In this document: positions 9,831 to 25,429 of the stretch, one piece after another
How positions within the stretch are numbered: the first letter of the stretch is position 1
How the letters are laid out: each line of letters starts with the position of its first letter
Virus record (IMG/VR): IMGVR_UViG_3300021964_011278
Span: 1 to 29,105 of that record
Length of the DNA stretch: 29,105 nt
Source of the DNA: a virus
Reading direction: 5' to 3' (one strand)
Notes under the pieces: model-generated
What the model was told of the DNA's origin: nothing
The model's input: the letters and a program-made list of their open reading frames with translations, nothing else
The model's database searches: none
Position numbers and translations under genes: made by a program

Positions 9831-10255
9831 TGAGAGAATGTTTAATTGTGGGTGCTGGCTCTTCAAAAACAAAAGCTGCTGATTACCCTGATATATTTTC
9901 TATTAGTGCAAATTTACATCACCCTAATGCAAATATAATTTTTGCACAAGATGACCCGATTATGGATCGTATATTACGTGAAGGTGTTGATGGGTTTAGA
10001 ACTCAACCAGTTTTTACTACACCACAAAAATATAAAAAATATAAAGACCATTTTAGATGTTATGAATTTAACTATAGACTATTTCATAGTTGTTCCAGCT
10101 TATCGTCTGGATTAAACGCGATAGCTTTAGCACAATTTTTCAACTTTGAGCGTATTATTCTTTGTGGATTTAATTTTGACGAAAAAGAAGCTAATTATAA
10201 TGAACTTTTTCAAACAATCTCACATGAGAGTGAAATAGAGTATGTTTTTAAATGA
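9830..10255 (+). CDS. Rossmann-type DUF115/sialyltransferase-like protein (short)
   Basis: The start MRECLIVGAGSSKTKAADYPDIFSIS resembles the nucleotide-binding beginning of GT42-type sialyltransferases and DUF115 proteins (IxGxGxSLK followed by a Tyr-Pro segment). The later SSLSSGLNAIALAQFFNFERIILCGFNFD resembles their TSGxxxxxxAxxLGxxxIxLxGxDF strand-helix-strand. At 141 residues it is about half the family size, so it is either a compact version or a single-domain remnant. A role in sugar transfer would fit the cassette. Confidence 0.6.
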   Translation: MRECLIVGAGSSKTKAADYPDIFSISANLHHPNANIIFAQDDPIMDRILREGVDGFRTQPVFTTPQKYKKYKDHFRCYEFNYRLFHSCSSLSSGLNAIALAQFFNFERIILCGFNFDEKEANYNELFQTISHESEIEYVFK

Positions 10256-10860
10256 ATTATTTTACTAACTTATTTGATTATAACTTACGTTACGTGCATG
10301 CTCCAAAATGTTCTTCACGAACTACTCTTGCTTGGATGGTTTTAATTAGAGAACCTCATCTTTATGAAAGTAAGCCTGAGTGGTTTATGAGCGTTCCTAG
10401 TAAAAGAGACCATGCTTATAAAAATATAAAAAGACGAGTACAAAAACATGATTTTTTTGAAACTGAGTATGATACATCAAAAATTACTTTTTGCATAAAA
10501 AGAGATCCTGTTAAACGTTTTATCAGTGCATATCAAAATATGAGATGGCTTGGTGAGCTTGGAAATAATATTGAAAAATTAATTAATAATTGGGATGATT
10601 TACTGATGAACCGTCCAGTTTTAAAAGAGCATTTTAGAACACAGACCTCTTGTTATGGAACTCACGCAATTTATTCACACATATTTAAGCATGACAGAAT
10701 GAAAGAGGTAAGAGAATTTTTAGAAGACTACGCAAAAGTTCATCTTCCAAATCTTCATTTACAACAATCAGGTGAAAAAGAAGAAATTGTACTTAATAAT
10801 GAACAAATAAAATGGATTATGGAAAAATATAAAGAAGATTATAATAATGGCTGGTATTAA
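10252..10860 (+). CDS. Sulfotransferase (family 2-like)
   Basis: A carbohydrate-type sulfotransferase, expected to move sulfate from PAPS to a sugar hydroxyl. The 5'-phosphosulfate loop is YVHAPKCSSRTTLAW (about 14-28), including the KxxSRT core, and the 3'-phosphate site is FCIKRDPVKRFISAYQN (R84, S92), the canonical RxPxxRxxSxY pattern. Length, 202 residues, is at the small end. It overlaps the upstream gene by ATGA and the glycosyltransferase downstream by 14 nt. Both PAPS motifs are intact, so activity is plausible. This implies a sulfated product. Confidence 0.82.
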   Translation: MNYFTNLFDYNLRYVHAPKCSSRTTLAWMVLIREPHLYESKPEWFMSVPSKRDHAYKNIKRRVQKHDFFETEYDTSKITFCIKRDPVKRFISAYQNMRWLGELGNNIEKLINNWDDLLMNRPVLKEHFRTQTSCYGTHAIYSHIFKHDRMKEVREFLEDYAKVHLPNLHLQQSGEKEEIVLNNEQIKWIMEKYKEDYNNGWY

Positions 10861-13400: not shown

Positions 13401-14566
13401 TGTTAGTTGAAATTGTAGGAAAGTTTTTTGATAATCATTCATTAACTATAATTAATCGTAATTTAGCATTAGGATTACAAAAATATCATGATGTATATAT
13501 TACTCCTCTTGATTCGTTTGATCCAGTTCATGGTTTAAATAAAGGCGTTGTTAAAGAGCTAAAAAATCTTGCTGGTAAAGAGATGCCTAAAACAGGAGCA
13601 CAAATACAATTAAGACACTCATACCCACCTATTTGGCAATGGCCTCCTAAAGATGGAACTAAAGTTATCTATATTCAACCATGGGAATATCCAAAATTAC
13701 CGTTTGAGTGGCAATATAAATGGGAAACTTTCGCAGATCATGTAATAGTACCGTCAAACTATATTAGAGATATTGCAATTCGTGGAGGAATGCGGCCTGG
13801 TGGTATTACAGTGGTTCCAAATGGTTATAATCAAGATATTTTCAACAAATCTGCAAAACCTTTAACAAAATACGGGATAGATCCTAATAAATTTAATTTT
13901 GTTTACGTAGGTAATCCTCAATGGAGAAAAGGTTTAGACCTGGTAATCAATGCATGGCATAAGTCTTTTAAGTCTTATGATAATGCTCGTTTAATTATTA
14001 AAGACACACCCCAAATTTATGGTCAAAATAATATTCTTAATGAGATCATTAAAATGCAATATAAAACTGAATGTGCAAAAGTTATTTATATAGATGATAC
14101 TCTTACTGATGAAGAAATGGCTGGGCTATTTACCGCTTCAAAAGTGGTTGTACACCCTTATCGCGCTGAAGGGTTTGGGATGCATATACAAGAAGCTGTA
14201 GCATGCGGGTGCTTGCCTATCTTACCTGATAAAGGACCTCATGAAGACTTTATTCCAAATGATATCGGATTAAGAATCCAAACTAACCCAAAACCTGTAG
14301 ATATTACTTCTGGTCAAATTTTTGCTCAAAAACCAGGAGACGCTTTCACCATGATGAATTCTCATACTTTTATGAATGAACCTGATGGACAATCTTTATC
14401 AAAAGTAGTACAATATATTTATCATTCGCACGATAAAAAAGAACATTTTTCTAAATTAGATAGTCTTGAAATGACTAACACTTGGGAAAATGTTGTAGAA
14501 TCTTATGTGAAAGTAATCGAGAAAGTAGATGCCAGAAAAACACACCCTATCCGACATAGAAATTGA
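13400..14566 (+). CDS. GT4-type glycosyltransferase (GT-B fold)
   Basis: A retaining GT-B enzyme. The C-terminal donor domain shows FVYVGNPQWRKGLDLVINAW, then VVHPYRAEGFGMHIQEAVACG, with the EX7E motif (E...GFGMHIQE) typical of family 4. The N-terminal half holds IYIQPWEYPKLPFEW and VIVPSNYIRDI. Length, 388 residues, is normal. It begins on the stop of the previous gene (TAATG), and its end is overlapped by 38 nt by the Fe-S carrier gene. It likely adds a further sugar to the phage-directed glycan. Confidence 0.85.
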   Translation: MLVEIVGKFFDNHSLTIINRNLALGLQKYHDVYITPLDSFDPVHGLNKGVVKELKNLAGKEMPKTGAQIQLRHSYPPIWQWPPKDGTKVIYIQPWEYPKLPFEWQYKWETFADHVIVPSNYIRDIAIRGGMRPGGITVVPNGYNQDIFNKSAKPLTKYGIDPNKFNFVYVGNPQWRKGLDLVINAWHKSFKSYDNARLIIKDTPQIYGQNNILNEIIKMQYKTECAKVIYIDDTLTDEEMAGLFTASKVVVHPYRAEGFGMHIQEAVACGCLPILPDKGPHEDFIPNDIGLRIQTNPKPVDITSGQIFAQKPGDAFTMMNSHTFMNEPDGQSLSKVVQYIYHSHDKKEHFSKLDSLEMTNTWENVVESYVKVIEKVDARKTHPIRHRN

Positions 14567-15068
14567 TAAGTGGTTTGCAGAACTTGAAGCAGAACTAGAA
14601 GCTAATAAAGACGAAGATGAGCTTGCAAGATTGGCTCAAAAGGTTTTAGACAACCATCAACCATCTCTTGCAGATAAAGTATTACAGGATTTTCATGGAA
14701 ACGCTCCGATCATTGATGAGTCTTATTCTGGTCAGTTGCCAGATATTACTCCTAAAGCTAGAATATTTATTACTCAGAATTTGGAAGAAGGACAATATTT
14801 TAAGTTCTCAGTCTACGGCGGGGGATGTTCCGGTTTTAATTATGCTTTTGATGTGGCTTCAGAAATTACAGATGAAGATATTCAGTTTTCGAATTCACCA
14901 CCAGCTTTAGTAGATCGTGAATCTCTACAATTTTTGTACGGAACTACTATAGATTTAGAAGACAAAGGAATGAACAAGCTTCTCAAAGTTGATAATCCTA
15001 GTGCTAAAGCCTCTTGCGGATGTGGAACAAGTTTTGCATTTGATGAAGATCTACTGGATATATATTGA
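14529..15068 (+). CDS. A-type iron-sulfur carrier (IscA/ErpA-like) with N-terminal extension
   Basis: Residues about 72-179 are an A-type carrier domain that holds an Fe-S cluster and passes it to apo-proteins. All three ligands are present: C100 in YGGGCSGFNY and C163, C165 in ASCGCGTSF. The C-to-C spacing (63 then 2) is almost the same as in IscA. An acidic helical extension of about 70 residues (AELEAELEANKDEDELARLAQ) precedes it and is absent from bacterial IscA, which is about 107 residues. It may be a partner-binding arm. Fe-S carriers of this type are known in marine phages. Possible clients here are the radical SAM protein and host Fe-S enzymes. Confidence 0.85.
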   Translation: MPEKHTLSDIEIDKWFAELEAELEANKDEDELARLAQKVLDNHQPSLADKVLQDFHGNAPIIDESYSGQLPDITPKARIFITQNLEEGQYFKFSVYGGGCSGFNYAFDVASEITDEDIQFSNSPPALVDRESLQFLYGTTIDLEDKGMNKLLKVDNPSAKASCGCGTSFAFDEDLLDIY

Positions 15069-15700
15069 TGAAAGACTTTAATTGGATAGTAAATGAAAGT
15101 GGATTACCTTGGTTAAAGCTTGACATCCAATTCAACTATGAATCTATGCTTAAAGAGGCTGTTGCATTAAAAGATCGCTTTGTAAATCACCGCGATGAGG
15201 ATGGTGTAGGGGGTTATAGACATAAAGGTTGGCGTAGCTTATCAATTCACGGTATTTCGGCAGAAAAAACAAATCACTATGAACAATATGGTTATAAATC
15301 TAATGAAGAAACTCCTTACAGATGGACAGAAATTTCTGGTCTTTGTCCTAATACAGTTTCTTTTTTTAAGAATGTATTTCCTTTTTCTTCTTATTATAGA
15401 GTAAGATTCATGTTACTTGAGCCAGGAGGTTTTATTACACCACATAAGGATACAGATATTAATAAGCTTTCTCCTATCAATATGGCTTTAAACCACCCAA
15501 AAGGCTGTAAGATGAAAATGAAAGGCCATAAAGGATTTGTCCCTTTTAAACCTGGAACCATGATGATGTTGGATGTAGGTAATGAGCATGCATATATTAA
15601 TAATTCTAACGAAGATCGATACCATATTATTGTTCACGGAATAAAAACAGAAGAATTTAAGGATTTAGTAGTTCGTAGCTATGAGAAAAATGGGAATTAA
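15068..15700 (+). CDS. 2-oxoglutarate/Fe(II)-type oxygenase (aspartyl/asparaginyl hydroxylase-like)
   Basis: A double-stranded beta-helix oxygenase: the iron ligands are HKD in GFITPHKDTD (H126, D128) and H174 in GNEHAYINNS, and R184 in DRYHIIVHG is placed to bind 2-oxoglutarate. This arrangement matches the aspartyl/asparaginyl beta-hydroxylase and related cupin-like groups. Start ATG 15068 overlaps the upstream TGA (TGATG); a TTG at 15065 is less likely. The length is 210 residues. The substrate could be a protein, a sugar or another small molecule. Proximity to a second such enzyme at 17032 suggests a shared pathway. Confidence 0.75.
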   Translation: MKDFNWIVNESGLPWLKLDIQFNYESMLKEAVALKDRFVNHRDEDGVGGYRHKGWRSLSIHGISAEKTNHYEQYGYKSNEETPYRWTEISGLCPNTVSFFKNVFPFSSYYRVRFMLLEPGGFITPHKDTDINKLSPINMALNHPKGCKMKMKGHKGFVPFKPGTMMMLDVGNEHAYINNSNEDRYHIIVHGIKTEEFKDLVVRSYEKNGN

Positions 15701-18402: not shown

Positions 18403-18858
18403 ATGTCTGATTATGAAACTTTTGAACAATTTCTTGCAAGAAAAACAAAAGAAGAGGAAGCTGAACGAAAACATAGAATTGAAAAATCTCAGTCGCATCA
18501 TGATTTAGTAAATCCTAAAATTTATGAATCTCCTGATGGTGGTAAAACTGTGTATGAACGTAATTTTGGTAAAACTAATCGTAGGCAAATTGCTTCTTCA
18601 CCTGAAGAAAAAAAGATACGTGATTACCTAAATCGTGATGTAGATATGGTAAATCACCCACCTCACTATAACAAAGGTATTGAGACTACAACCTATATTG
18701 ATTCTTGGGAAATGGGTTTTTCACAAGGTAATGTTATAAAATATGTTACTCGGTATAATCTTAAGCACGATACAAAAGAAAAACAGCTTGAAGACCTTAA
18801 AAAAGCTCGTTGGTATCTTGATGATTTAATTCAGTTAGTTGAAAATGGAAAATCTTGA
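18403..18858 (+). CDS. DUF3310 family protein (phage nucleotide kinase-like)
   Basis: Residues about 83-145 are the DUF3310 domain: VNHPPHYNKGIETTTYIDSWE, then FSQGNVIKYVTRYNLK and LEDLKKARWYLDDLI. This pattern (HPxHY...GNxxKYxxRxxxK...DLxKAxxYLxxL) is widespread in phages. Some members are annotated as nucleotide kinases, but the biochemical role is not settled. An 80-residue charged N-terminal region is extra. GGAG at 18392-18395 is 7 nt upstream of ATG 18403. The next gene overlaps its end. Confidence 0.78.
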   Translation: MSDYETFEQFLARKTKEEEAERKHRIEKSQSHHDLVNPKIYESPDGGKTVYERNFGKTNRRQIASSPEEKKIRDYLNRDVDMVNHPPHYNKGIETTTYIDSWEMGFSQGNVIKYVTRYNLKHDTKEKQLEDLKKARWYLDDLIQLVENGKS

Positions 18859-19342
18859 AACCTATTTTGCAAACGAATACGTAAGTAAAGATAGTGATCC
18901 CCACGTTATACGGCTAGTAACACAGTCACAATGTGTTTTAGATGTTGGATGTGGGGATAATCTTTTTAAAAAACAAATTCGTTTAGGAACTTTTACGGGA
19001 ATTGATCTTTATAATAAAAACGCAGATATAATGTGTGATATTTTGGATTATAAAACAAATTTAAAATTTGATTTAATTATATGTTTTGGTTCAATTAACT
19101 TTTATGATATTAAATGGATCGATGATAGAATGCACAAGGTATTCTCACTTCTTAAACCCGGTGGTACAATATGTATGAAAGTTAATCCAGGCGAACCTTT
19201 TGAAAATGGCAAAAAACTAGCATGGTTCGACCGATGGACCGTTCCTCTTGCTAAACATTATGCAGAGTTGTACAATATGAAAATTGAACATTTACGAGAA
19301 GGATCTCGTAAGCGAATTAAATGGGATTACGTAACAAAATGA
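18845..19342 (+). CDS. Small class I SAM methyltransferase
   Basis: The SAM-binding loop CVLDVGCGDNLFKKQI (30-45) and the acidic residue in FTGIDLYN are intact. The usual motif-4 to motif-6 stretch is seen in FDLIICFGSINFYDI and SLLKPGGTICMKVNPG. With the start at ATG 18845 it has 165 residues, a minimal Rossmann methyltransferase; a TTG at 18839 would add two residues. No target-recognition domain is present, so a small molecule or a partner-delivered substrate is likely. It ends in ATGA overlap with the symporter gene. Confidence 0.75.
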   Translation: MENLETYFANEYVSKDSDPHVIRLVTQSQCVLDVGCGDNLFKKQIRLGTFTGIDLYNKNADIMCDILDYKTNLKFDLIICFGSINFYDIKWIDDRMHKVFSLLKPGGTICMKVNPGEPFENGKKLAWFDRWTVPLAKHYAELYNMKIEHLREGSRKRIKWDYVTK

Positions 19343-20775
19343 ATTTATTTCCACTATTTGAGCCTTCTACTGGTTTAACAATACTTTTAGCCTATGGGTT
19401 ATTTGCACTAGTAATGACTTATTGGTATTCAAGAGGTTATAATGACTCAAAAACCTCTTTCTTAGTAGCTCGTCGTGAGCTTAACACTTTTCAAGGCAGT
19501 TTATCTGTTGCTGCTGCTTGGCTTTGGGCTCCAGGACTATTTATTTCTGCACAACAAGCCTATGTTAATGGTTTAGTAGGACTATTCTGGTTCTGTTTAG
19601 GTAATTTCTTAACTCTTGGAGCATTTGCATATTTTGCTAAACAAATCAGGGAACGTGCTCCAGAAGGATTTACCTTTTCTGGATACTTAAAAGAACGTTT
19701 TTCTGGTAGAGTACAAGCTCTTTTTGTAGTTGAGATGATGATTCTTGCCACGTGTGCTTTTGCTATCAATCTTCTAGCTGGTTCAAAAACTGTAGAAGTG
19801 CTAACAGGTATTAACTACACTCTTGCTACTTTACTGATGGCTGGTGTAGCTATTCTTTATTCTTTTAGAACAGGACTTAAAGCAACAGTTGTTACAGAAA
19901 TTATTAAGATCTGTGTCGTCTGGGCAGGTGCTGTAGTATTAGTTCCTTGGGCTATCTCTGCTGCAGGTGGTTGGGATGTTGTAGTTGCAGGCTTAGGAGG
20001 TCGCACCGGTGAAGGTGCTCAAATCTTTGGGACTCCGTTTGCTTGGGGTATTTTTACAGGATTTGGAGCTGCTGCATTTCTGGGTCACATGGGAGGTCCT
20101 TGGGGTGATAATTCTTTCTATCAACGAGCCTTTTCTATCAAAACAAGGTCAATTATTCCATCATATGTAATCGCATCATTTGTTTTTATTGTGATTCCAA
20201 TCCTTATGGGAATGCTTGGATTTCTTGCTGCAGGATTAGAACTTGGTATTCCAAATAACATGGTTGGTACTACCAATGCTATCGTGATTGGAACACTGCT
20301 ACCTCCAGTAGCATCCATCTTTTTTGCATTCATGATTTTTGCTGGACTTGTTGCTATTCTTGACTCTCAGTTTGCTTCTGTAGCAAATATGACAGGACAT
20401 GATATCTTTAACGCTTTTAAAGGTGGTACAGATGATCAAGCAGTTATCAACTACGCTAGATGGGGAATGATTGCGTTAGCTGTAGCTGGAGTAGCTGTAG
20501 CTAATATTCCTGGAATGCAACTTGTGTATCTATTTTTATTCTTTGCAGTTTTAAGGGCTGCTGTATGGTTACCTTCTATGATTTCCTTAGTAAGACCACA
20601 CTGGATCACAGAACGTGGTATGTTTTGGGGTATTTTAATTCCAGCTACAGTTGGTGAAATATTATTTGTAGCAGGAAAATTAGGTTATACCAATACTGCT
20701 TTTATGGGAACTTTAATTGCAATCTTTGGTTCTCCTATTCTAGCCCTTGTTATCAGTAAGATGAATGTCAAATAA
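19339..20775 (+). CDS. Sodium:solute symporter (SSS/SSF family)
   Basis: A full-length secondary transporter of the SSS family, an inner-membrane protein with about 13 helices importing a solute with sodium. Signatures are SFLVARRELNTFQGSLSVA (N-terminal), AYVNGLVGLFWFCLG, then APEGFTFSGYLKERFSGRVQ, and later SFRTGLKATVVTEI and FMIFAGLVAILDSQFASVA. The pattern WLWAPGLFISAQQAYVNG...RAPEGFTFSGYLKERF looks closest to urea-type (DUR3-like) members, but the substrate is not reliably readable. Start ATG 19339 overlaps the previous stop (ATGA). Length, 478 residues, is normal and unbroken. Parts of the gene are near 50% G+C, above its neighbours, suggesting transfer from a host. Confidence 0.85.
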   Translation: MNLFPLFEPSTGLTILLAYGLFALVMTYWYSRGYNDSKTSFLVARRELNTFQGSLSVAAAWLWAPGLFISAQQAYVNGLVGLFWFCLGNFLTLGAFAYFAKQIRERAPEGFTFSGYLKERFSGRVQALFVVEMMILATCAFAINLLAGSKTVEVLTGINYTLATLLMAGVAILYSFRTGLKATVVTEIIKICVVWAGAVVLVPWAISAAGGWDVVVAGLGGRTGEGAQIFGTPFAWGIFTGFGAAAFLGHMGGPWGDNSFYQRAFSIKTRSIIPSYVIASFVFIVIPILMGMLGFLAAGLELGIPNNMVGTTNAIVIGTLLPPVASIFFAFMIFAGLVAILDSQFASVANMTGHDIFNAFKGGTDDQAVINYARWGMIALAVAGVAVANIPGMQLVYLFLFFAVLRAAVWLPSMISLVRPHWITERGMFWGILIPATVGEILFVAGKLGYTNTAFMGTLIAIFGSPILALVISKMNVK

Positions 20776-21382
20776 AAAACTCATTATTCTAACAGGACCA
20801 CAAGGTTCTGGAAACCATCTTTGGTCAAAGATATTTGCGCTTCACCCAAAAGTATTTGGGTGGAGTGCTCTTTTAGATACTTATTGGATAGGTCATCATG
20901 AAGAACCTTTTTCTCTTTGCTGGAAAAATCCAGATCTACTTCATGCTTTTGACTGGGATAAATCAGACTACTTTATCACGTCAATTTCATGTCCCTATTT
21001 TTACAATAAACAACCAAATATTCCAAAATATTTTGAATTCTTTAATATAGCAAGACTATATTGTGATATTACTTTTTTAATTATCGGTAGAGACAAGAAC
21101 ATTCTTGAAAAACAAGAAGAAAGAGTAAGAGGCGAAAAAACCTATCATAAATTCCTAAAAGAGTTAAAAAATATAAAATACGCTGATAAAATATATTTAA
21201 GTACAGAGTTGTTATATTTATATAAGCAAGAATATTTGGAAACATTAACTAAATTTTTTCCTATTGATTTTGATAATCCTTTGATAGATGACATTATAAA
21301 AATTGATGAAAATAGGAAGTATGTTAATCAAATATCTCAACAACCCTTGGATTTAGTAGTAAAGCAAGTAAGTTATGAATAA
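20765..21382 (+). CDS. Sulfotransferase-like P-loop protein
   Basis: The N terminus KKLIILTGPQGSGNHLWSKIFALHPKVFGW has the strand-loop-helix (GPQGSGNHLW) of sulfotransferases and related P-loop proteins. The later FLIIGRDKNILEKQEERV resembles the 3'-phosphate segment (RDxxxxxxS), but the canonical Ser is not evident. Length is 205 residues. It overlaps the symporter by 11 nt. Either a divergent sulfotransferase or another phosphate-binding enzyme fits. Confidence 0.55.
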   Translation: MSNKKLIILTGPQGSGNHLWSKIFALHPKVFGWSALLDTYWIGHHEEPFSLCWKNPDLLHAFDWDKSDYFITSISCPYFYNKQPNIPKYFEFFNIARLYCDITFLIIGRDKNILEKQEERVRGEKTYHKFLKELKNIKYADKIYLSTELLYLYKQEYLETLTKFFPIDFDNPLIDDIIKIDENRKYVNQISQQPLDLVVKQVSYE

Positions 21383-22013
21383 AATAAAAAAGGCCTTTGA
21401 GAAATTAGTTTTAAAAAATCCAGACAACTTTATAATAATATTTTTCCATGGTGGTATGGCTGGATCTTCCCTATTACGCATCTTATCAGCTCATGAGGAG
21501 TTTTATCACTCTTTTAAAAACTTAAATCAGTTAGAGTATGACGATCCTATAAGATATCCTGATTCCGTAGAAGGTTTTTATACAGACTTAACTCATGAAC
21601 TTTCTTTCAAAGAACAACATTTAGCATGTGCTCATATACATTTTCATACACCTTGGGAAAGTGATGAAAATCTTTTAAAATACTTTGATCTCGTTAAGCA
21701 AAATAAAAAAATAGCTCTTAAAACACATGATTTTTCTCTTTATGAAAAGTATAAAAAAAGTAAATGTATTTTTGTCACGGGCGATAATCTTTCAAACAGA
21801 AGAATTATAAATAGTGGAAACCCCCCATTTTTACCTGAAGAAGTTATCAAAGTTCGTATCGATAAACTTATGTCCTTAGATTACGATACCTTTTTACAAG
21901 AATACTTAAACTTAGTTTTTGAATTCAATCTTACCCCAAGAATAAATTCAGTAAGAGCTTTTACCTTAATGTGGTTAGAAAGACAAGAAAGATTCAAAAG
22001 AAGTCTTTCCTAA
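21375..22013 (+). CDS. Divergent sulfotransferase-like protein
   Basis: Residues 17-45 (NFIIIFFHGGMAGSSLLRILSAHEEFYHS) resemble a sulfotransferase 5'-phosphosulfate loop, followed by ALKTHDF (a KxHxF segment common in that group) and CIFVTGDNLSNRRI, in the position of the 3'-phosphate site. The protein lacks a clear R-x(7)-S pair, so the assignment is tentative. It overlaps the previous gene by 8 nt; the two form a pair directly after the symporter. Length is 212 residues. Confidence 0.45.
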   Translation: MNKIKKAFEKLVLKNPDNFIIIFFHGGMAGSSLLRILSAHEEFYHSFKNLNQLEYDDPIRYPDSVEGFYTDLTHELSFKEQHLACAHIHFHTPWESDENLLKYFDLVKQNKKIALKTHDFSLYEKYKKSKCIFVTGDNLSNRRIINSGNPPFLPEEVIKVRIDKLMSLDYDTFLQEYLNLVFEFNLTPRINSVRAFTLMWLERQERFKRSLS

Positions 22014-22040: not shown

Positions 22041-23783
22041 ATGAATTACAAAGAACTCAAACAACTTATTCAAAAACATAATCATGCTTATTATGATTTG
22101 TCTGCTCCTTCTATTTCAGATGGTGAGTATGACCAGTTGTATGATAAGCTTGAAGCTATGGAAAAGGCACAAGGTTGGCGAGACCACGATTCACCAACTC
22201 TTCGTGTAGGCGGTTCTGCTGGTAAAATTACACATCCATATAAACTTTACTCTCTCCGTAAGATTTATGAAGGTGAAGAAGAAGTTGAATCTTGGATGGA
22301 TGTTATACTCCCAAAAATTGATGGTTCTAACTTAACTCTGGTTTATCGTAGGGGCAAACTTAAGCTTGCGATAACTCGTGGTAACGGAGAACAAGGCGAA
22401 GATGTGACACATCTTGCAGAATGGATTAAAAATGTTCCACATCGTATTGATACACAGTTTGATGAAATTGTTGTTAACGGCGAGTGTGTTACAGATAATC
22501 AAGTTGAAAACTTCAGAAATTACGTATCAGGCGCGTTAGGCTTAAAATCTGCGCATGAATTTAAAGATAGAAATATTAATTTTATTGCACACGATTGGCT
22601 CGGAATCGATATGGATTACTTGCCTCGTATGAAAGTTTTAACAGGGTTGGGATTTTTTACAGCTCTTGAAGACCGCGCTTGGGAATATCCTCAAGACGGA
22701 GTAGTGTATCGTTGCAGTTCGTATGCTAAATCACAACAACTGGGGTATACATCAAAGTATCCTCGATTTGCTGTGGCTCTGAAAAAGCGTATGACAGAAG
22801 TTGCTATTACTACGTTACAAGATGTCTTGTGGGTAGTTGGTCGTACAGGAACTGTTAATCCTACAGGTATTGTTGATCCTGTAGTGCTTGATGATGCTAC
22901 TATTTCTCGTGTCACTCTTCATAATCTTGGTATTATCGAAGAACATGATCTTGGATTAGGGGATTTAATTCAGATTGAACGTGCTGGAGGAGTTATACCA
23001 AAGTTTATTGGTGTAGTCCAACACTCAGAACACGGCATAAAGATTACAAAAAACCACGCAGAACAGACCATTGGTATGCAAACAAAAAGAGACGGTCCTA
23101 GACTAGTGGTTGCAGATAAGAATAATATTAATACATCAAAAGTTTTGGAACATTTTATCAAAACTATTGATATCAAAGGACTAGGCCCAGCTTCTGTTCA
23201 AAAGATGGGACTTACACACCCAGTCGATATTTATGATGATCAAAACTGGGCAAAACTTGGTGCTAATGGCGCTAAAGTCGAAGCTGAAATTGAGCGAACA
23301 AAGACCAAACCTTATGATATTGTTCTTGCTTCCCTTGGTATCCCTGGAGTTGGTAAGTCTGCTGCTAAACTAATTATTAGTAAGATTCCAGCGTTCAGAA
23401 ATCTAAGAGATATTGAAACTACAGAAATAAAAGGTATCGGCCCTTCTACTGTTGATTCAGTTCTATCTTGGCTCGACGAAAACGAAGAGTGGGTTACGAC
23501 TTTACCTCTTCAACTAGAACAGAATGTCACGGTTGAAGAAACAGTTGGAACTCCTGCTCGTAAAATATGCATTACAGGAAAGCTGGATATGCCTCGTGGT
23601 GATCTTGCAGATCGTCTCGAAAGCAAAGGCTTCAAAGTAACTTCAACAGTCACTAAAGATTGTTATGCTCTTATTACTGGCGGTGATACCTCATCTTCTA
23701 AATATAAACGTGCTATTACTCTTGGTGTAACCATTGTAGATTATTGGTCAAGCCAGAAAGAAGTATTATCTGGTGATTTTTAA
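22041..23783 (+). CDS. ligA: NAD-dependent DNA ligase lacking the zinc finger
   Basis: Seals nicks using NAD. The Ia-type NAD-binding domain (HAYYDLSAPSISDGEYDQLYD) leads into the nucleotidyltransferase core with the adenylated Lys in PKIDGSN (K92) and TRGNGEQGEDVT. An OB fold follows (VGRTGTVNPTGIVDPVVL), then helix-hairpin-helix motifs (IDIKGLGPASVQKMG, LGIPGVGKSAAKLI, IKGIGPSTVDSVL) and a C-terminal BRCT domain (about 505-575). The four-cysteine zinc finger normally between the OB fold and the HhH domain is absent: that segment has no cysteine. Length is 580 against about 670 in bacteria. ATG 22041 is the start; a weak TATATT box lies at 22029-22034. Confidence 0.92.
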   Translation: MNYKELKQLIQKHNHAYYDLSAPSISDGEYDQLYDKLEAMEKAQGWRDHDSPTLRVGGSAGKITHPYKLYSLRKIYEGEEEVESWMDVILPKIDGSNLTLVYRRGKLKLAITRGNGEQGEDVTHLAEWIKNVPHRIDTQFDEIVVNGECVTDNQVENFRNYVSGALGLKSAHEFKDRNINFIAHDWLGIDMDYLPRMKVLTGLGFFTALEDRAWEYPQDGVVYRCSSYAKSQQLGYTSKYPRFAVALKKRMTEVAITTLQDVLWVVGRTGTVNPTGIVDPVVLDDATISRVTLHNLGIIEEHDLGLGDLIQIERAGGVIPKFIGVVQHSEHGIKITKNHAEQTIGMQTKRDGPRLVVADKNNINTSKVLEHFIKTIDIKGLGPASVQKMGLTHPVDIYDDQNWAKLGANGAKVEAEIERTKTKPYDIVLASLGIPGVGKSAAKLIISKIPAFRNLRDIETTEIKGIGPSTVDSVLSWLDENEEWVTTLPLQLEQNVTVEETVGTPARKICITGKLDMPRGDLADRLESKGFKVTSTVTKDCYALITGGDTSSSKYKRAITLGVTIVDYWSSQKEVLSGDF

Positions 23784-25429
23784 TGCCTGAAGTAATACTT
23801 TTAAATGATGCAACTTATCACAAACACCCCCTGTCTACAAGACCAGCAGGGGGTCATGTCATAGCTTCTAATATCAGAGAAGCAGGTTACACTTGTGAAG
23901 TGATTGATTGGTTTACAGTTTTACCTGATTTTTTTAATATTCTCAAAAAACTTGCTACAAAAGATACTAAAGTGTTAGCTATCAGTACTACTTTTTTAGC
24001 TCCTCCTACTTCAGTAGGATTTAATGAAGCACTTTCAGAACAAACAGGTCTAGGCGTATATAAAGATGAAACTTTAGACAACGCTTCTATAGACTCTGAA
24101 ATTATTTATGATAGAAATCTATATCTCTGGCTAGGCAGTGAAGAAAATGCTAAAAACTGGTTTTCTAAAATTAGGCAAATATTACCAGGAGTTACGATCA
24201 TTATGGGCGGGCCTAGAACCGCAAGAATTTTTAAAATAGCAGAAAGAAAAAATGTAGAAAGCGCAATTAACAATGTAGATTATTTTGTAGTAGGTGAAGG
24301 TGATGAAGCAATTATAAAAATCTTAAATAAAACAATCAAAGGTAAAGGACATTTTTTAAAAGAAATACATAAAAACGGTTTAAAATTTATATTTTCTAAT
24401 AGATATGATAAACCAATACCTCCAATAAAGTATACAACATATACTAATGCGATAAACGGTGAATGGATGCCCTTAGAGATCAGTAGGGGTTGTAAATTTA
24501 ATTGTTCTTTCTGTAATTATGAGAAAAATGTTTATAGAAAAAAGGAACGCCAGACTCTAATAGATGAGCTTACAAGAAATTATGAAATGTTCGGTATAAA
24601 AGGTTACCATTTAACTTGTGACTGTCTTAATGATTCAAAAGAATACATTGATATTTTTACTGACGCTTTAAAATCTTTATACTTTAATATTGAATATGTT
24701 TCTTATACACGTTTAGATATGTTCCACAAATATGAAGATATGATGGAACAGCTTTTTGAGACAGGTTTTAAGGCAGGTTGGTTTGGCTTAGAAACTTTTA
24801 ATCATGATGCAGCAAAAGCAGCAAAAAAAGGATTGCATCCTGAAAGAGTAAAAGAATTAATGAAATTACTAAAAGATAAATCCGTTAACTATGGAGGATT
24901 CTGGTTAAGCGTTTATCTAGTCTTTGGTTTGCCTAAAGAAACCATAAAATCCTTAGAAGACACTATCGACTGGTTTAAACACAATCATGTCGTAGATGAA
25001 GTCTCAGTTTCTGTGTTAGATATTGCAGAATTTTCTGAGCAACTCGTTGATATGACGAGCTTTAGTGATCACACTTTAAACCCAGAAAAATATGGGTTTT
25101 CAGAGTTATCATATAACCCATTCTATTGGAAGCATGAAACAATGGATCTTCATGATGCTATTAGAATGAAAGAAAAATTTAAAGAAGAAATGAAACATCA
25201 TACTTCTACTCGATATGGTGGAAGTGCGATGAATGAGTATGGATCTATAAGAACTCTTGGATTTACTCATGACGAAACAGTAAAACTTCTTAAAGTTAAA
25301 CTAGGAGATGTTGGTTCTAAATTACTTGATGTAGATAAGAATCTAAAAGTTAATGTTAGAAAACAATTGCTTCAACTTAGTCAAGAAAAACTTAAGAATT
25401 ATAATGATAGTTTACTGTCTTTTAAATAA
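23783..25429 (+). CDS. Radical SAM protein with B12-binding-like N-terminal domain
   Basis: The radical SAM core has the [4Fe-4S] ligands in SRGCKFNCSFCNYEK (C237, C241, C244). The N-terminal 180 residues have a cobalamin-binding-like Rossmann arrangement (GGHVIASNIREAGYTCEVIDW, VTIIMGGPRTARI, YFVVGEGDEAIIKIL), but no DxHxxG motif is seen, so cobalamin may not be bound. WFGLETFNHDAAKAA and SVYLVFGLPKETIKSLEDTI are typical barrel strands. Length is 548 residues. It starts in TAATG with the ligase stop. The reaction is unknown: methylation or other chemistry on a nucleotide, sugar, lipid or protein. The A-type Fe-S carrier at 14529 could supply its cluster. Confidence 0.85.
   Translation: MPEVILLNDATYHKHPLSTRPAGGHVIASNIREAGYTCEVIDWFTVLPDFFNILKKLATKDTKVLAISTTFLAPPTSVGFNEALSEQTGLGVYKDETLDNASIDSEIIYDRNLYLWLGSEENAKNWFSKIRQILPGVTIIMGGPRTARIFKIAERKNVESAINNVDYFVVGEGDEAIIKILNKTIKGKGHFLKEIHKNGLKFIFSNRYDKPIPPIKYTTYTNAINGEWMPLEISRGCKFNCSFCNYEKNVYRKKERQTLIDELTRNYEMFGIKGYHLTCDCLNDSKEYIDIFTDALKSLYFNIEYVSYTRLDMFHKYEDMMEQLFETGFKAGWFGLETFNHDAAKAAKKGLHPERVKELMKLLKDKSVNYGGFWLSVYLVFGLPKETIKSLEDTIDWFKHNHVVDEVSVSVLDIAEFSEQLVDMTSFSDHTLNPEKYGFSELSYNPFYWKHETMDLHDAIRMKEKFKEEMKHHTSTRYGGSAMNEYGSIRTLGFTHDETVKLLKVKLGDVGSKLLDVDKNLKVNVRKQLLQLSQEKLKNYNDSLLSFK

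Follow-up and report, generated by a model that had tools for sequence, protein, structure and literature searches.

A phage gene for a predicted SSS-fold permease with an altered Na2 site recurs beside a gene for a putative sulfotransferase-fold protein

Results

An intact SSS-family gene in a phage operon

The window, by which we mean the whole stretch of 29,105 nucleotides analyzed here, comes from a 29 kb contig held as an IMG/VR virus record (IMGVR_UViG_3300021964_011278). It carries an open reading frame of the sodium:solute symporter (SSS) family that is uninterrupted, with no internal stop in its translation, and that stands among phage genes (Table 1). An alternative in-frame ATG at 19321 would give a product of 484 residues; we set the start at 19339 because this codon forms an ATGA overlap with the upstream stop and because a length of 478 residues is also found in a 96% relative (L003). 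On the upstream side, the SSS start overlaps the stop of a methyltransferase-like gene by 4 nt, and at its 3' end the gene overlaps the downstream ORF by 11 nt. An earlier note on this DNA had described a complete 478-residue SSS gene with overlapping joins in a phage operon, and the intact frame, the match to PF00474 and the two overlaps bear this description out.

The window helicase and ligase were nearest to those of T5-like Vibrio phages, at about 30–36%. The region was abundant in sugar-nucleotide, glycosyltransferase, and other modification genes, and its 2OG oxygenase is a possible functional counterpart of the oxygenase-like cluster c3 described below. The window also contained a radical SAM protein (23783-25429), with a weak match to a B12-binding domain and no PHROG match, and a phage-borne A-type Fe-S carrier protein (14529-15068; PF01521) with an N-terminal extension.

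Table 1. Features of the window and the basis on which each was called. Cluster names (c1, c2, c39) refer to partner genes grouped around the SSS loci.
Feature	Position	Strand	Basis
Sulfotransferase elsewhere in the window	10252..10860	+	PF03567
Asp/Arg beta-hydroxylase-like 2OG oxygenase	15065..15700	+	PF05118
DUF3310 phage protein, upstream, phage context	18403..18858	+	
Class I SAM methyltransferase-like gene, cluster c2	18839..19342	+	PF13489, 28.9 bits (cut-off 27)
SSS-fold permease ORF (predicted fold), 478 aa + stop	19339..20775	+	ORF call, PF00474 E=1.2e-21, AF2 model, dN/dS
Codon E187 = PutP D187 (TM5, acidic residue of proposed Na3 site)	19897..19899	+	Alignment
Codons A339-I340 = PutP S340-T341 (Na2 side-chain ligands, TM8)	20353..20358	+	Alignment
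Codon D342 (PutP S343), invariant in marine-phage clade	20362..20364	+	Alignment
Sulfotransferase-fold protein (predicted fold), cluster c1, 205 aa, motif GPQGSGNH	20765..21382	+	AF2 pLDDT 94.9; top PDB matches sulfotransferases
Cassette neighbour, cluster c39 (5 loci), P-loop-like N-terminus	21375..22013	+	Sulfotransferase-like by eye only
NAD-dependent DNA ligase, phage context	22041..23783	+	
DnaB-like replicative helicase, phage context	27452..28840	+	

The protein matches the SSS family but none of its annotated subfamilies

The window protein scored 77.5 bits against PF00474 (Pfam SSF; TC 2.A.21), for which the cut-off is 22.8. It passed neither the NCBIfam superfamily cut-off nor any NCBIfam subfamily cut-off: the superfamily model TIGR00813 gave 115.8 bits, below its own cut-off of 184, and the PutP, PanF, and ActP equivalogs gave 41, 35.7, and 32.9 bits against cut-offs of 515.5, 328.05, and 1099.25, respectively. 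PHROGs assigned it to a family of unknown function. The AlphaFold (AF2) model (pLDDT 85, pTM 0.85) showed a permease fold along the whole protein, with TM1 broken, and polar residues in its core are invariant. SSS structures headed both the Foldseek and the VIA lists, with DUR3 and CHT1 first; these lists are rankings, in which a family missing from the list may still be a match. On the basis of the model, the protein is predicted to have the LeuT-type SSS fold.

The gene is spread among viruses and is under strong purifying selection

One IMG/VR scan returned 58 further loci with SSS relatives of 45–100% identity. The dN/dS of the window gene against nine relatives was 0.03–0.085, with the highest dS values near saturation, and its GC3 was 0.215 compared with 0.15–0.24 in its neighbors. 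The SSS gene is under strong purifying selection. At one locus (L056, 5087-6427), the homologue lies in two overlapping ORFs of 289 and 178 aa, from a frameshift or an assembly error. T4-like capsid genes were present in 2 and terminase in 6 of 22 long SSS contigs. About 50,000 annotated phage records gave a single match, the metagenomic gut record MT836198 (34%), and no cultured phage in that collection had a relative. In 84,980 prokaryote genomes, a strict-pattern search based on the marine-phage alignment turned up no relative; a second scan of prokaryote genomes, started from the gut-phage protein, yielded 80 loci.

In a maximum-likelihood tree, the marine-phage SSS proteins formed one branch beside an alphaproteobacterial gene (L138), and a very long DUR3 fragment attached to its base. 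The earlier note had proposed such a comparison of SSS subfamilies; the marine-phage branch is distant from PutP, PanF, and ActP, and its link to DUR3 runs through that very long branch. The gut-prophage proteins formed a separate branch with cellular genes in between. Phages therefore likely acquired SSS genes twice, separately, as judged from the tree, although this is not certain because several supports were only in the low 90s.

In the gut group (most of the Clostridia and Treponema loci among L061-L140, from dozens of gut bacterial genomes), the SSS gene directly preceded PAPS_reduct and ParB_N genes and a terminase in most loci, which indicates that this clade is prophage-borne. Cellular cousins (L122, L125, L131, L123, L132, L133, and L134) adjoined asparagine-synthase-like genes, identified by Pfam in L125 and by motif in L132. 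Reading a substrate from these neighbors was tried and dropped, as asparagine-synthase-like, PAPS_reduct, and ParB_N genes point to none; they are suggestive of an ATP-activated partner enzyme. One contig (L123 and L124) carried two apparently identical segments ~11 kb apart, each with secDF-like, SSS, and asparagine-synthase-like genes.

The classical Na2 side-chain pair is altered in the marine-phage clade

We aligned 49 full-length marine-phage, 66 gut-prophage-locus, and 9 cellular SSS proteins with E. coli PutP, ActP, and PanF. At position 339, the marine-phage proteins had Ala in 37 and Ser in 12 cases, the cellular proteins had Ser in 8 and Gly in 1, and the gut-prophage proteins had Ser in 66/66. 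At position 340, the corresponding residues were Ile (45) and Val (4), Thr (8) and Lys (1), and Thr (66/66). The window protein has neither side chain of the classical Ser/Thr pair, and a Na2 site with these side chains can be ruled out for it, as judged from the alignment. The position of PutP D187 was Glu in 49/49 marine-phage proteins and Asp in 66/66 gut-prophage and 8/9 cellular proteins, while H250, W255, and E132, together with D342, were invariant across the marine-phage clade. Compared with the SiaT-type Na3 site (a TM5 acid plus two TM8 serines), the aligned window protein has E187 in place of Asp, then D342 and S343.

ActP, a listed sodium/acetate symporter, has Ala and Val at the two Na2 positions in the same alignment, and loss of the hydroxyls is therefore no proof of lost Na+ coupling. 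Nevertheless, Na+ coupling of the marine-phage proteins appears doubtful, since position 340 is Ile or Val in all of them and Thr in nearly all cellular and all gut-prophage proteins. According to a review (PMC7918813), Na2 substitutions were highly deleterious in the transporters tested, CbrA, which has no Na2 residues, is proton-driven and still transports, and MctC is a proton symporter of the SSS family. The earlier note had held that loss of the sodium-site residues would overturn its reading; the window protein has indeed lost both Na2 ligands, and the whole clade has lost the second, but purifying selection on the gene is strong. Such selection despite the loss would fit a changed coupling site better than decay.

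A sulfotransferase-fold gene is the near-constant partner of the SSS gene

ORFs around 59 SSS loci (the window and the 58 relatives) were grouped into partner clusters. The gene c1 was found in 54 of the 59, usually directly downstream of the SSS gene. Four of the five loci without it are on contigs that end within the SSS gene, so that c1 was present at 54 of 55 informative loci and L045 alone truly lacks it. The two genes mostly overlap, and their order recurs among otherwise different phages. The earlier reading, of a single gene, missed the larger gene set around it.

The c1 model matched TPST1 in Foldseek (E 2.6e-5) and 4gox in VIA (Z 12.2, rmsd 3.1 over 166 residues), with kinases at 9.6 or less, and c1 is accordingly modeled as having a sulfotransferase fold. 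Its loop GPQGSGNH lacks the usual PAPS-loop Lys/Arg of sulfotransferases, and the Pfam sulfotransferase models did not match it. Although c1 was present in at least 595 viral contigs, often together with genes for oxygenase-like proteins, methyltransferases, and APS kinases, it had no match in about 50,000 phage records. The distances of SSS and c1 were correlated with r=0.42, which suggests that their history is shared only partly and that partners have been swapped or re-associated.

The methyltransferase-like c2 likewise occurred at 54 of the 59 loci; 23 loci had the oxygenase-like c3, and 11 had c7, another P-loop gene. In c3, the residues of an HxD...H...R pattern (H126, D128, H181, and R191) were invariant in 12 sequences; its similarity to a cyanophage protein annotated as a 2OG oxygenase was weak. 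We did not adopt c7 as a sulfotransferase because it has no detectable homology to c1 (hhalign probability 8%). The c39 neighbor had no Pfam match, and profiles of c3, c7, and c15 found no relative in the PDB. The last of these, c15, is a small secreted protein upstream of SSS in nine loci (L039, L040, L042, L043, L044, L049, L050, L056, and L059), with a signal-peptide-like N-terminus, a C-terminal Phe in most copies, and a likeness to an outer-membrane barrel; single c15 proteins gave no Pfam match over the cut-off. Judging by these features, c15 could be an outer-membrane pore partnering the inner-membrane SSS permease.

Related gene sets carry a different transporter

We viewed about 3 kb on each side of 80 c1 loci, selected from the at least 595 contigs as those most similar to the window c1 and hence not a random sample. 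Within these limits, 46 of the best 80 had TctC- or TctA-type genes of the tripartite tricarboxylate transporter (TTT), 7 had SSS, and none had both; a second TctC-like cluster (s15) was counted by resemblance only. SSS was absent in 73 of these 80, and an APS kinase-like gene was within 3 kb in 32. In four of the 80 with c7 or c3 but without a transporter, the contig ends upstream. On the scale of whole contigs, neither TctA nor TctC was found in 22 SSS contigs, and no SSS was found anywhere in 27 c1 contigs without SSS beside c1; of these 27, 25 carried TctA or TctC, in some cases elsewhere than next to c1. In very large phage contigs of up to 525 kb (L152-L231), the c7-c1-c3 set occurred with TctC/TctA, APS kinase, and DUF2061 genes, and some of these contigs had two or three TctC genes.

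This pattern is an association and does not prove interchange, since SSS and TTT occur in phages of different lineages and probably of different habitats. The mutual exclusion could reflect the host rather than function.

Discussion

The SSS gene as an uptake member of a phage cassette

The results reported above describe a conserved phage transporter gene that recurs with a particular set of partners. We hypothesize, at even odds, that it encodes a working SSS permease that serves as the uptake member of a phage cassette of group-transfer-type enzymes. The phage would install the permease in the host inner membrane during infection, and the permease would import a small solute, as its fold and conservation suggest. 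The solute or a derivative would probably be modified, since the cassette partners have group-transfer enzyme folds or motifs: the sulfotransferase-fold protein and the methyltransferase here, and, in related cassettes, an APS kinase and 2OG-oxygenase-like proteins as well. Sulfation is suggested by the c1 fold together with that APS kinase, and a functional link with the permease by the gene association. Coupling may be by H+ or through a rearranged cation site that includes E187 and D342, not through the classical Na2 site, and SSS may be one of several interchangeable uptake modules for the cassette. The complete form of this proposal is more tentative: an import-and-modify system in which uptake would fall to either SSS, with a rebuilt and possibly proton-driven site, or TctA/TctC, and the solute taken up would be chemically converted for the virus by the sulfotransferase-fold protein, the oxygenase, the methyltransferase, and the APS kinase.

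Several other explanations have to be weighed against this one. The gene might be a stand-alone auxiliary metabolic gene, unrelated to c1, whose product takes up urea or a different nitrogen source, or else an osmolyte (choline, for example). The best solved relatives are a urea and a choline transporter (DUR3 and CHT1), motifs in TM1 and TM6 are common to DUR3 and the window protein, and estuarine viral SSS genes are reported as osmoregulation genes (PMC13288924). This reading nevertheless has to contend with an identity of about 20% to any solved member and the failure of every equivalog, and it leaves unexplained both the near-constant c1 partner and the mutual exclusion of TTT and SSS; we regard it as rather unlikely. 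A similarly low probability attaches to the view that SSS does transport but is a passenger in a hypervariable region, adjoining glycan- or protein-decorating genes by position only. The many modification genes of the window, the lack of SSS in most of the best c1 loci, and the modest SSS-c1 correlation would fit a passenger, but c1 accompanies SSS lineages that are 45–100% identical, mostly with overlapping genes, and other phages pair the same gene set with another uptake system.

Loss of the Na2 side chains, and the use of SSS domains in sensors such as CbrA (PMC7918813), might instead suggest a membrane sensor or a membrane modifier, for example in superinfection exclusion, built on an SSS scaffold without ion coupling. 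We consider such a role improbable, because the model retains a full-length permease fold with the broken TM1 and an invariant polar core, CbrA still transports, and TctA/TctC in other phages indicate solute handling. Finally, SSS genes are common in bacteria, and the earlier note had raised the case of a host-phage chimera. An assembly chimera or a decaying host gene has next to no chance, given that 58 further viral loci, drawn from many metagenomes, share its neighbors, that dN/dS is low and GC3 like that of the neighbors, and that the prokaryote genome scan with the phage alignment and strict patterns was empty.

Phage auxiliary genes are usually read singly; in this case, a transporter comes with a particular set of partner genes, and the occurrence of an unrelated transporter with the same set in other phages is a strong handle on function. 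As c1 is present in at least 595 viral contigs yet unmatched in about 50,000 phage records, the cassette may be a common, unseen route to altered host chemistry. The Na2 change, in a natural clade under purifying selection, offers a ready test of coupling-ion switching in SSS.

Comparison with known systems

The literature on phage SSS genes, DUR3 cryo-EM, and phage cassettes with sulfotransferase or APS kinase yielded partial precedents only. Viral SSS genes from estuarine viromes (PMC13288924), and viral tctA plus a 2OG oxygenase from SUP05 phages (PMC4164917), are reported as single auxiliary genes; in the passages found, neither study describes the cassette, an exchange of SSS for TTT, or a changed Na2 site. 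Nor did we find a description of these three in the literature searched, which left most subscription journals outside.

The top PDB match to the window protein is the urea-H+ symporter DUR3 (9j7c, 9j7d, and 9vim; profile E 1.4e-34, Foldseek TM 0.82). Both have W61-x-W63-A64 in TM1 and D257-N258 in TM6 (window numbering), and the Na2 pair of DUR3 is also non-classical (S/A). However, their identity is about 20%, the phage protein is more than 100 residues shorter, and phage E187 and D342 correspond to Ser and Ser in DUR3. The high-affinity choline transporter CHT1 (9bim and 8j74) shares the fold and is level with DUR3 (Z 37.5) at 18% identity. The urea-type likeness noticed earlier holds insofar as DUR3 ranks with the best matches of known structure in both sequence and fold, but no equivalog passes and CHT1 is its equal by structure. 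We rejected naming a substrate from the nearest relative, given the DUR3/CHT1 tie and identities of about 20%, and the suggested assignment to a nitrogen-source or osmolyte class is likewise without support, with no NCBIfam equivalog over its cut-off.

E. coli PutP, PanF, and ActP belong to the same Pfam family and have the same architecture, with alignable Na2/Na3 positions, but the window protein is far from them in the tree and misses every equivalog cut-off. The gut-prophage clade of Clostridia and Treponema, which includes MT836198, belongs to the same SSS subgroup, is phage-borne, and is about 35–39% identical to the window protein. It retains S-T at Na2, whereas the window clade does not, and its neighbors are PAPS_reduct, ParB_N, and terminase, whereas those of the window type are c1 and c2.
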